A stretch of DNA of 33,609 nucleotides from Pseudomonadota bacterium (GTDB taxonomy: Bacteria > Pseudomonadota > Gammaproteobacteria > Pseudomonadales > Halieaceae): NCBI GenBank assembly GCA_015222725.1, contig JADFVW010000148.1, positions 1-33,609 of the forward strand. Direction: 5' to 3'. Under the pieces are notes generated by a model, which was not told the DNA's origin, made no database searches, and saw only the letters and a list, made by a program, of their open reading frames with translations. Made by a program: the position numbers and the translations under genes. Shown here in pieces: positions 27,877 through 33,477 of this stretch (position 1 is its first letter; each line of letters opens with the position of its first letter).

Positions 27877-30246
27877 TTAAAAGTTTCTCCGCAGCGTCAA
27901 ACCGTAAGACCTCGGTCTGGCGTAAGACTCCTGGCTGGAACCATAGAAGCCAGAAACATCAAAACCGATTATCGCGTAATCCTCATCTGTCAGGTTATCT
28001 ACGTAGGCGGCAACATTCCAAAGATTGTCTCCATCAGCCCAACTCAACCTTGCTTTAACGTCGGTATAGCTGTCAAATTCATGCGCTGTGAAGTTACGGG
28101 CGTTGTGAAAAAACTCGGACTGATAATTCGCACTGACCTGTGCTGCAAGCCCCCCGCCGAACAAATCCCAGGTATAACGAATCAGACCAGAAACCTGCCA
28201 CTCAGGTGTAAATGGTGGCGCTGCATCGATGAAAATGTCAGAGGCGATCTGTAAGTCCTCGACCTCGGCATCGGTGTAAGACACACCGAACATCATTTCC
28301 AGATTGTCCGTTGGGCTGGTAATCAGCTCAATTTCAACACCCTTGTAGTTCGCATCTTCATTGGTCACCGAGCTACTGTTGTTGACAAAAGTGAAGGACT
28401 GGTAGTCTTCATAATCGTAGTAATACGCCGCCATATTAAGCTGCAGCAGTCCCTCCATCAGGGTCAACTTGGCGCCCACTTCGTAGGACAGCAGAACCTC
28501 CTCGTCGTAGGGCGAGAAGCCACCGAACAGTGGGGCATTAAAACTACCGGCTTTCACGCCGCGGTTGATACCCGCATAGTAAAGGGAGTCGTCAGTGGGT
28601 GTGTATTCCAGCTGGATTTTTCCAGACCACAGATCCTGGTCGTGATCTTCTTTCAATTGGTCAATGTCGAACAAGCCGTTACTTGTTTCAATTTTCCGGT
28701 CATCAGTATTAGGGAAGAATGTCACAACACCCTCAAAGGATTTATCTTCCTGAATCAGTCGTAAACCTGTAACCAGCACCAGGGTGTCCGTCAAAGAGTA
28801 GTCAAACTGCCCAAATATGGAGAGGGAATCGGTATTGAGCTCAGTAATAGTGTTTGCTTCCAGCCCCTGGATTCCGAACCAATCCTGGCTTAGTGGTGAG
28901 GCAGCCAGACCCTGGAGAAAATCAGTATCTATTCCCAGGTAGTAGACACCCGCCACCCAGGTGGTCTTGTCAGTCGTACCGTTAAACCTCAGCTCCTGGC
29001 TGAACTGGTCTATATCACCATCAGACTGGAATATCAGCGCGCCTGTGGCTGATTGATCTGAGTCCAGACCGATCACTCTGGTAAAATTCTTGTAGTCTGT
29101 TACGGAAGTAAAAGAGGCCCAGTCGAAGTCATACTTAAACTCTGCGGTAAGCCCTTCGGACTTCAGTTCGTTCTGGTCATCAAAGGCAAAATCCTTGTTA
29201 ACCCTGTCGCCCCTGCCATCGGGATTGGTGTTGCCGAAGAAGTCGCCGTTCACTACCGGACGCGTAACGCTGCCATCACCATTGCCATCGACACAGACAC
29301 CGGACTGAATAACATCACAGTTCATTGGGTCGTTGCGCGAGTAGATAACATCAATTACCTCACCGTTGGCACGGCGAACTTCAGTGGTCGCCGCCAACTG
29401 ATAGGGGCCCTCACTCTTGGTCGTGTCTGCGTAGTTGCCGCTTAGCAATAAACTGCCCCTATCACCGATATCAAACTCCAGGTGGCCACGGAATGCGAAG
29501 GTGTCGTCATTCCAACCATCCTCGCCACCGTTGGTTCCCGGATCGCCATTAAAATCGGTACCCGGGTACACATTTTTTAACACCTCGTCCTGTTGATTAG
29601 AAAGGAATGCAACCCGCGCCCGAATACCATCGGTAAGTGCACCGCCAATGGCGCCCTCTACACGAATCTGGCTAAAGGAGCCCGCAGTTGCTTCCAGATA
29701 ACCTTCCAACTCATCGGTAGGTTTAACGGTGATTGTATTAACCAGCCCGCCCGTCGCGTTGCGACCAAAGAGCGTGCCCTGAGGGCCTTTCAGCATTTCT
29801 ACCCGCTCGACGTCAAACAAGCCAAAGGTCTGTGCCTGAGTGCTAGCCAAATAGGTGCCATCGATATACACGGCCACAGGTGCTTCCGCCAGGTCGGCAT
29901 AGTCATTCTGTACCACACCGCGAATATTAAAGATTGCCCGCTGCCCGCCGATGTCACCCGCCATGGATATACCGGGTGTATAGGCAATTAAATCTGTACT
30001 GTCCTCGAACCCCAGGGCCTTCATCTGATCCCCGGTATAGGCCGTTATCGCGACACCAACATCAGTCAGAGCCTGCTCACGCTTCTGGGCGGTCACCATG
30101 ACTTCTTCAAGAAGTACATCGGCAAATGCCATACCCGCGGCCAGGGGAGATAGCCCCAGCACCATAGCTATTGACTGGCTAAGCAGGCGTTTTTTCATTC
30201 CGGTTTCGATATTCACTACTGAAGACCGTGCGGCTTTTCTATTCAT
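27877..30246 (-). CDS. TonB-dependent receptor 2, associated with the pyrimidine locus
   Basis: LLEEVMVTAQKREQALTDVGVAITAYTGDQM; FNIRGVVQNDYADLAEAPVAVYIDGTYLAS; VERVEMLKGPQGTLFGRNATGGLVNTITVKPT; C-terminal ...YGLTLRRNF with terminal Phe. RBS GGAGGGG before the ATG at 30246. Confidence 0.95.
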   Translation of the reverse strand: MNRKAARSSVVNIETGMKKRLLSQSIAMVLGLSPLAAGMAFADVLLEEVMVTAQKREQALTDVGVAITAYTGDQMKALGFEDSTDLIAYTPGISMAGDIGGQRAIFNIRGVVQNDYADLAEAPVAVYIDGTYLASTQAQTFGLFDVERVEMLKGPQGTLFGRNATGGLVNTITVKPTDELEGYLEATAGSFSQIRVEGAIGGALTDGIRARVAFLSNQQDEVLKNVYPGTDFNGDPGTNGGEDGWNDDTFAFRGHLEFDIGDRGSLLLSGNYADTTKSEGPYQLAATTEVRRANGEVIDVIYSRNDPMNCDVIQSGVCVDGNGDGSVTRPVVNGDFFGNTNPDGRGDRVNKDFAFDDQNELKSEGLTAEFKYDFDWASFTSVTDYKNFTRVIGLDSDQSATGALIFQSDGDIDQFSQELRFNGTTDKTTWVAGVYYLGIDTDFLQGLAASPLSQDWFGIQGLEANTITELNTDSLSIFGQFDYSLTDTLVLVTGLRLIQEDKSFEGVVTFFPNTDDRKIETSNGLFDIDQLKEDHDQDLWSGKIQLEYTPTDDSLYYAGINRGVKAGSFNAPLFGGFSPYDEEVLLSYEVGAKLTLMEGLLQLNMAAYYYDYEDYQSFTFVNNSSSVTNEDANYKGVEIELITSPTDNLEMMFGVSYTDAEVEDLQIASDIFIDAAPPFTPEWQVSGLIRYTWDLFGGGLAAQVSANYQSEFFHNARNFTAHEFDSYTDVKARLSWADGDNLWNVAAYVDNLTDEDYAIIGFDVSGFYGSSQESYARPRSYGLTLRRNF

Positions 30247-30289
30247 ATCCCCTCCAGGTATCTGGTTTGGCTCATTGTTTTTTATAATC

Positions 30290-30305
30290 TTGTCCAGATG
30301 GACAG
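30290..30305 (+). promoter_or_regulatory. RutR-like operator, site 1 (TonB receptor 2 promoter)
   Basis: TTGTCCAGATGGACAG; core TGTCCA-GA-TGGACA is a perfect 6-2-6 palindrome; resembles the RutR box TTGACCAnnTGGTCAA. Confidence 0.65.
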
Positions 30306-30312
30306 GTTCAAA

Positions 30313-30341
30313 ATGCTATTCTATGCTGTCTATATGGTCAA
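30313..30341 (-). promoter_or_regulatory. Candidate sigma70 promoter of TonB receptor 2
   Basis: Minus strand TTGACC (30341-30336), 17 bp, TAGCAT (30318-30313). Confidence 0.5.
30326..30341 (+). promoter_or_regulatory. RutR-like operator, site 2 (TonB receptor 2 promoter), overlapping the predicted -35
   Basis: CTGTCTATATGGTCAA, starting exactly 36 bp from site 1; right half-site TGGTCAA matches the RutR half-site perfectly. Confidence 0.65.
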
Positions 30342-30422: not shown

Positions 30423-31928
30423 TCAGATATCACCCACAGCGTCTCCCGCTACTTGCTTGGCAACTCTGTTTCGCATCATCAGGTAATAGGTCACACTGGA
30501 AACGATGGCGCCAACAAACCATGCGTTGTCATAGATTCTCTGCCAGATTTCCGGTACACCTTCGAGAACGCCCGCTGCATTGAGAAAGCCGAGAACATTT
30601 GGGGCTATTCCAAGGGCAAGGGCAATCAGCGCACGGGGGTTCCAGCCCCCGCTGAACTCATAAGATTTCTCTCGCATATACAAATCGTCAATAGTGAGCT
30701 CGCATTTGCGAATAAAGAAATAGTCGGTAATCAAAATGCCCGCTATCGGACCAAGCAGAGACGAGTAACCCACCAGCCAGACAAACAAATAGGAACCTGC
30801 CGAGTCCAGCAGCTTCCATGGCATCATGGCGATACCCAGACCGGCAGTGATCAAGCCGCCCATTTTGAATGAAATTTTGTGCGGTGCCAGGTTGCAAAAG
30901 CCATTGGCCGGCGCGACTACATTTGCCGCCAGGTTAGTGGTCAATGTGGCGACAATTAACATACACAGCCCCAGCAGTGCAGCACCACCACCCAGTCGAC
31001 CCGCGACCTCCAAGGGGTCCCAGATTTCTTCGCCAAACACGGTTACGGTTGCCATAGTCACCGTCACGCTGATGAACGCCAGCAGCGCCATGGGCAGGGG
31101 CAGCCCGAGAGCCTGACCGATAATCTGATCCTTCTGGCTACGGGCGTAGCGGGTAAAATCGGGAATATTGAGTGTCAATGTCGACCAGAAACCAACCATA
31201 GCTGTGATTCCCGGCAGGAATACTCGCCAAAACTCTCCCTCCCTGGCACCACCCGGTACGAAAGCGGAGGGTTTTGCATACATGGCGTCAAACCCGTCGG
31301 CACTGACATAGGCCCAGTACAACATGCCAAAGCATATGGCCAGTAGCACCGGTGCGGCCAGAGTCTCCAGCCAGCGAATAGACTCCATGCCGCGCAGGAT
31401 AAAAAACACCTGTACCGCCCAGAAAGCCAGGAAGCTGATCAATTGTGCGAGGTCGATATCAAGAAATGGTATCGGTGTGCCAATAAACATGCCGCCGGAC
31501 AATCCATTTACAATTTGGTAAATGGCCGAGCCTCCCACCCAGGTCTGGATACCAAACCAACCACAGGCCACTAAACCCCTGAGAACACCGGGTAAACGTG
31601 CACCTACCGTACCAAAGGATGCCCGCAGAAGCACAGGGAACGGTATACCGTACTTAGCGCCGGCGTGGCCGATAAGTAACATGGGTACCATGACAATAAA
31701 GTTTCCCAGAAATACTGTCAGTATCGCCTGCCACCAGTTCATGCCCTGAGCAATTAAACCCGAGGCCAGCAGATAGGCGGGAACGCAAATGACCATACCA
31801 ACCCACAGCGCTGAGATATTTACCCAGTTCCAGGTTCGCTGGGCTTTGGTTGTCGGAGCGAGATCTTCATTCCAGAGGTAGTTTTCTGCACCTGCCGGTG
31901 GTGCTACTGATTGATCGGGAGCCTGCAT
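30423..31928 (-). CDS. NCS1 family nucleobase/hydantoin:cation symporter
   Basis: NEDLAPTTKAQRTWNWVNISALWVGMVICVPAYLLASGLIAQGMNWWQAI; AKYGIPFPVLLRASFGTVGARLPGVLRGLVACGWFGIQTWVGG; NIPDFTRYARSQKDQIIGQALGLP are diagnostic NCS1 motifs. Confidence 0.93.
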   Translation of the reverse strand: MQAPDQSVAPPAGAENYLWNEDLAPTTKAQRTWNWVNISALWVGMVICVPAYLLASGLIAQGMNWWQAILTVFLGNFIVMVPMLLIGHAGAKYGIPFPVLLRASFGTVGARLPGVLRGLVACGWFGIQTWVGGSAIYQIVNGLSGGMFIGTPIPFLDIDLAQLISFLAFWAVQVFFILRGMESIRWLETLAAPVLLAICFGMLYWAYVSADGFDAMYAKPSAFVPGGAREGEFWRVFLPGITAMVGFWSTLTLNIPDFTRYARSQKDQIIGQALGLPLPMALLAFISVTVTMATVTVFGEEIWDPLEVAGRLGGGAALLGLCMLIVATLTTNLAANVVAPANGFCNLAPHKISFKMGGLITAGLGIAMMPWKLLDSAGSYLFVWLVGYSSLLGPIAGILITDYFFIRKCELTIDDLYMREKSYEFSGGWNPRALIALALGIAPNVLGFLNAAGVLEGVPEIWQRIYDNAWFVGAIVSSVTYYLMMRNRVAKQVAGDAVGDI

Positions 31929-31952
31929 ATTTACTCTCTTTATTGTTTATTC

Positions 31953-31968
31953 TTGACTGCTTGATCAG
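31953..31968 (+). promoter_or_regulatory. RutR-like operator, site 3, overlapping the predicted -35 of the dihydropyrimidinase promoter
   Basis: TTGACTGCTTGATCAG; 6-2-6 inverted repeat related to sites 1, 2 and 4. Confidence 0.65.
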
Positions 31969-31981
31969 CTTGTCCTAGGAT
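31953..31981 (+). promoter_or_regulatory. Candidate sigma70 promoter of the dihydropyrimidinase gene
   Basis: TTGACT (31953-31958), 17 bp, TAGGAT (31976-31981). Confidence 0.5.
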
Positions 31982-32004
31982 ACACATGCTGACCATGTAG
32001 TCAA
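31977..32004 (-). promoter_or_regulatory. Candidate sigma70 promoter of the NCS1 permease, fully overlapping the opposing promoter
   Basis: Minus strand TTGACT (32004-31999), 16 bp, TATCCT (31982-31977). Confidence 0.45.
31989..32004 (+). promoter_or_regulatory. RutR-like operator, site 4, overlapping the predicted -35 of the NCS1 promoter
   Basis: CTGACCATGTAGTCAA; 12 of 14 specified positions match TTGACCAnnTGGTCAA; exactly 36 bp from site 3. Confidence 0.7.
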
Positions 32005-32019
32005 GTTATTGATTGGTGA

Positions 32020-33477
<1,458 letters not shown>

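Follow-up and report, generated by a model that had tools for sequence, protein, structure and literature searches.

A putative bidirectional promoter with a common -10 core between hydA and an NCS1 permease gene in a Halieaceae genome

The intergenic region separating hydA from a divergent NCS1 nucleobase permease gene, located in a 33,609-nucleotide stretch of a Halieaceae draft genome (contig JADFVW010000148.1 of assembly GCA_015222725.1; hereafter the window, its genome being G000), probably carries a bidirectional promoter of sigma-70 type that belongs to the 18-bp class and is controlled by a RutR-like repressor, and this reading best explains the locus as a whole. Two opposed promoters, TTGACT-17-TAGGAT on the + strand (31953-31981) and TTGACT-16-TATCCT on the - strand (32004-31977), were recovered by a consensus scan at the very positions given in the original prediction. 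Each matches the consensus at 9 of 12 bases; both -35 elements match at five of six positions and both -10 hexamers at only four (Table 1).

Geometry of the overlapping promoters

The hydA and NCS1 -10 hexamers overlap in five of their six base pairs, within TAGGATA, and thus lie, as had been proposed, on essentially the same base pairs; the palindromic centre TCCTAGGA is indeed present at 31973-31980. A single -10 core readable on both strands is the sequence signature of a bidirectional promoter. The predicted hydA and NCS1 transcription starts are 18 bp apart, point away from each other and both fall within the range foreseen for them (31965-31995). The term face-to-face normally designates promoters whose converging transcripts overlap; that description misleads here, as the predicted transcripts diverge (from 31970 on the - strand and 31988 on the + strand) and would share no sequence.

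Table 1. Coordinates of the features at the hydA/NCS1 locus, in window positions
Feature	Position	Strand	Basis and remarks
hydA promoter -35, TTGACT	31953..31958	+	Consensus scan; doubles as O3 outer half-site; invariant in four genomes
hydA promoter -10, TAGGAT	31976..31981	+	Consensus scan; spacer 17
Predicted hydA transcription start, G	31988	+	From geometry, 7 bp after -10
NCS1 promoter -35, TTGACT	31999..32004	-	Consensus scan; doubles as O4 outer half-site; invariant in four genomes
NCS1 promoter -10, TATCCT	31977..31982	-	Consensus scan; spacer 16
Predicted NCS1 transcription start, A	31970	-	From geometry, 7 bp after -10
Bidirectional -10 core, TANNNTA (TAGGATA / TATCCTA)	31976..31982	both	TATSCTA in four genomes
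O3, TTGACTGCTTGATCAG, RutR-type, weaker	31953..31968	+	Pattern match; intact in G000 and G021 only
O4, TTGACTACATGGTCAG, RutR-type	31989..32004	-	Pattern match; intact in all four genomes
tonB2 operator, TTGACCATATAGACAG	30326..30341	-	Over promoter -35 (TTGACC, spacer 17, TAGCAT)
Second tonB2 operator, CTGTCCATCTGGACAA	30290..30305	-	At predicted start
NCS1 nucleobase permease	30423..31928	-	TIGR00800 above cut-off; nearest solved structure Mhp1 hydantoin permease
HydA, dihydropyrimidinase / D-hydantoinase	32038..33477	+	TIGR02033 605.9 bits, cut-off 393
tonB2, TonB-dependent receptor	27877..30246	-	Probably in the same regulon
83 bp identical to the first 83 of contig C170	33527..33609	+	End of window; C170 bears the regulator

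The arrangement exceeds chance expectation: the counted geometry (opposed promoters with a common TANNNTA, both -35 elements matching at no fewer than five of six positions and spacers of 16-18) occurs once in the window vs never in 60 shuffled windows; when the 109-bp intergenic region was shuffled 20,000 times, it arose in 4 cases, and it is absent from 1.26 Mb of other NCS1 loci. Since this geometry was defined after the site had been seen, conservation constitutes a better test than shuffling.

Conservation of the block and its operators

Divergent hydA/NCS1 pairs are also present in three relatives: G021 (L146) and G022 (L145), which belong to the same family but to different genera, and the Pseudomonadales MAG L035; the NCS1 identities are 86%, 80% and 86%, respectively. 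A family-wide search of 140 genomes yielded no further hydA/NCS1 locus beyond those of G021 and G022, and the arrangement is known from these four genomes only. In all four, a 52-bp block, TTGACT-N40-AGTCAA, is found at the orthologous place and with the same length; 32 of its 52 columns are invariant, vs 5 of 40 and 1 of 40 in the two flanks. The invariant positions comprise both TTGACT hexamers, the core TATSCTAGG with the exception of S, and O4 with the exception of its two central bases; the variable S is a base that is diagnostic for neither -10.

Each -35 is embedded in an operator, as anticipated: TTGACT forms the outer half-site of O3 or O4, and O4 covers the NCS1 -35 and is located at the predicted start of hydA transcription, O3 being its mirror image. 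Scored against the 16-bp consensus TTGACCAnnTGGTCAA, which we take to be the RutR-type motif, O4 matches at 12 of 14 positions, O3 at 10 and the site at the regulator gene (see below) at 12, so that all three can be classed as RutR-type operators; by comparison, random 16-mers match at 3.5 positions on average, with a 99th percentile of 8. The pattern TTGACYNNNTGRTCAR, drawn from O3 and O4 themselves, has these two sites as its only exact matches in the window. The symmetric two-operator picture first put forward holds in G000 and G021; it fails in G022 and L035, which retain both promoters and O4 and have lost the inner half of O3, the remnants of which match the RutR consensus at 6/14 and 8/14, respectively. 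The hydA -35 stays unchanged in the very genomes in which O3 is otherwise lost, and is therefore maintained for its role in the promoter and not just as half of an operator. Since O4 is kept in four of four genomes and O3 in two, O4 alone could repress both genes; judged by its conservation, O4 is the core operator.

The same comparison bears on whether the hydA-ward match is a promoter at all. If only the NCS1-ward promoter were real, the match towards hydA would be a by-product of the dyad and hydA would be read from elsewhere; the persistence of O4, and not of O3, in the four genomes would agree with such a situation, and any TANNNTA core yields a partial -10 on the opposite strand. However, the hydA -35 is invariant and equally distant in all four genomes, including those devoid of the rest of O3, and the consensus scan detected no other + strand promoter-like site matching at least 9 of 12 bases between 31000 and hydA, which makes a single NCS1-ward promoter quite improbable. 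The arms on either side of the core (31952-31973 and 31984-32005) form an 82% inverted repeat over 22 bp, as might be expected if the TTGACT...AGTCAA dyad served chiefly to bind some other factor and the hexamers resembled promoter elements only incidentally. Against this, G022 and L035 keep the -35, the -10 and the right operator although the inner left arm is lost, and sites of the right-arm type are encountered again, both upstream of the RutR-like gene and, in Woeseia, in the region separating tonB2 from NCS1; we therefore grant a dedicated site for another factor hardly any probability.

The RutR-like regulator and a wider operator set

On the sequence obtained by joining the window to contig C170, hydA is followed by a TIGR03842-family LLM oxidoreductase gene, a gene for a DMT_YdcZ protein and, on the opposite strand, the RutR-like gene (about 35032-35703, - strand, outside the window), which lies ~1.6 kb past hydA. 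The order in G021 (L147) matches, and the regulator is clustered with the hydA/NCS1 pair in G022 and L035 too. The assembly break at the end of the window thus hides the link between hydA and its regulator.

A TIGR03613 search of G000 returned one strong match, located on C170 (162 bits, E = 2.5e-47); as this score lies under the cut-off of 368, the protein can be called RutR-like but does not qualify as a RutR equivalog. Among PDB entries, it is best matched by E. coli RutR (E = 6e-39), and it carries a TetR_C_3 (YcdC-like) domain. In RutR, uracil is contacted by W77, Y97, W167, Q171 and Q179, while K52 and K62 are DNA-proximal lysines (PMC10891134); all five contacts and both lysines are conserved in G000, G021, G022, L035, Woeseia and G198. 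The regulator is, on the strength of these residues, a probable uracil-sensing repressor. A search of the whole G000 genome, performed with the O3/O4-derived pattern fixed beforehand, revealed an exact match, the operator TTGACTAAATGGTCAG, a short distance upstream of the gene for the regulator, where it forms TTGACT-17-CATAAT; other exact matches, on C212 and C402, are inside long open reading frames. In G021 and G022, the vicinity of the regulator gene yielded no operator with one mismatch or fewer, and autoregulation is thus not general.

The two tonB2 operators are 36 bp apart, which is the distance between O3 and O4, and the pair is repeated in G021 (L146). This tandem (30246-30341) suggests that a TonB-dependent receptor is placed under a pyrimidine regulator. 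The TTGAC of an operator coincides with the -35 of four G000 promoters, those of NCS1, hydA, tonB2 and the regulator; in the window, only 4 of 62 TTGAC are followed by TA...T at 16-18 bp, including those of three of these four promoters. On the reverse strand, the tonB2 -10 reads AATGCT and is devoid of the T of TANNNTA; the tonB2 promoter therefore looks one-way, a natural contrast to the hydA/NCS1 core.

Among the other NCS1 loci scanned (L036-L114, at most 72% identity), an operator with 0-1 mismatch was encountered in a Woeseia MAG only, and not at hydA. This single palindromic operator, TTGACCCTATGGTCAA (L039 9756-9771), is situated between tonB2 and NCS1 and offers a TTGACC -35 in either direction; both divergent genes could take their -35 from it. 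The Woeseia cluster also contains PreA, a probable PreT, a beta-ureidopropionase-like amidase and a RutR-like gene, a content that points to reductive pyrimidine degradation. When O4 plus the -10 was used as a pattern in 295 genomes of the order, the only exact match was that of G000; two matches with one mismatch belong to other genes. In G198, a TTGACC-16-TATCCT operator is found upstream of an amidohydrolase gene followed by a RutR-like gene; in G259, the match is upstream of a TonB-dependent receptor gene, beside a different TetR gene.

Proposed mechanism, competition and known systems

In the proposed mechanism, RNA polymerase would load on TANNNTA in either orientation, using the left TTGACT for hydA and the right one for NCS1. 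The RutR-like repressor, a TetR-family protein, would bind the 16-bp operators, in which the outer half-site, TTGAC, doubles as a -35 element; one dimer seated on O4, over the NCS1 -35 and the hydA start, could silence both genes, and O3, as its mirror image, would add to this repression in G000. Binding of uracil or a related pyrimidine would release the repressor and let both genes be expressed, one polymerase at a time. Repression common to the two genes, as originally predicted, is likely on the arrangement of the sites. Because the -10 elements overlap in 5 bp, a polymerase bound for one gene should exclude a polymerase bound for the other, and the mutually exclusive binding that had been proposed appears geometrically sound.

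Several known systems share parts of this design. E. coli bidirectional promoters have a symmetric common -10 core and divergent starts 10-23 bp apart, 18 bp being the commonest spacing; at one of them, acrA/acrR, the TetR-family AcrR represses both directions (Warman, Grainger and colleagues; PMC12825309). The hydA/NCS1 locus resembles them by its symmetric -10 core, its functionally linked divergent genes and its predicted 18-bp spacing; it differs in that both -35 elements match at five of six positions and are operator half-sites, and in that its regulator is encoded outside the divergent pair. Tn10 tetA/tetR (PMC3037858) likewise combines a TetR-family repressor, two operators and overlapping promoters, with one operator able to shut both; there, however, the repressor is itself a divergent gene and three promoters are involved, whereas here the divergent pair consists of two catabolic genes, NCS1 and hydA, served by one -10 core, with the regulator past hydA. 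The E. coli RutR regulon (PMC10891134, PMC5343134) offers a related regulator that senses uracil, a 16-bp palindromic operator and pyrimidine-catabolism targets, but the pathway there is Rut and here hydA/NCS1. The E. coli rutA-rutR intergenic region holds one site (TGGACTAAACGGTCAA), and the same scan found no promoter matching at least 8 of 12 bases in it. RutR regulons for pyrimidine catabolism are known from 68 proteobacterial genomes, their motif changing with the taxon (PMC5343134). By analogy, the locus would behave as a bidirectional promoter of the acrA/acrR type, controlled by a TetR-family repressor and equipped with a Tn10 tet-like pair of operators; each single part is already known and it is their combination that is new.

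This raises the question as to whether the permease and the hydrolase compete for polymerase. In the five E. coli bidirectional promoters that were tested, the two directions did not compete at basal strength, natural promoters of this kind being too weak for that; competition appeared only once one direction had been reinforced, a stronger -35 inducing it in most cases (PMC12825309). Since both -35 elements match at five of six positions here, competition after derepression is plausible. There is nonetheless an even chance that both promoters are real and that competition carries no physiological weight, the overlap being no more than a way of packing two jointly repressed promoters within 52 bp; such a reading concerns the competition claim alone and is compatible with a repressor-controlled bidirectional promoter. 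The behaviour of the E. coli promoters at basal activity and the weakness of the -10 hexamers would favour such packing, while the strength and conservation of both -35 elements, in light of the effect of a stronger -35 in E. coli, argue against it. A more elaborate version, in which the promoter would be tuned to compete, with a repressor on near-consensus -35 elements toggling between an off state and a fixed, mutually limiting permease-to-hydrolase ratio and a single O4 sufficing in relatives, is tentative and, in our estimation, rather unlikely. Most studies of bidirectional promoters concern E. coli, and those tested are too weak to compete without activation. The hydA/NCS1 promoter is natural, has strong -35 elements on both sides, is conserved across several genera and uses an apparent repressor half-site as its -35; it is thus a good test case for asking whether evolution uses polymerase competition to fix a transporter/enzyme ratio, and whether one operator can silence both directions.

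In terms of pathway, neither PreA above cut-off nor a close beta-ureidopropionase was found in the G000 draft, which is 83% complete, and the exact substrate and inducer are therefore uncertain; beta-ureidopropionase adjoins NCS1 or tonB2 in G021, G022 and Woeseia. The TIGR03842-family oxidoreductase (F420-type LLM class; L150 1-1017) follows hydA in G000, G021 and G022, and a luciferase-like gene adjoins hydA in L035. Beside tonB2, the segment 25736-27790 encodes a uracil phosphoribosyltransferase and an acylating aldehyde dehydrogenase, for which the best model is sulfoacetaldehyde dehydrogenase, below cut-off; possible roles for these genes are uracil salvage and semialdehyde disposal.
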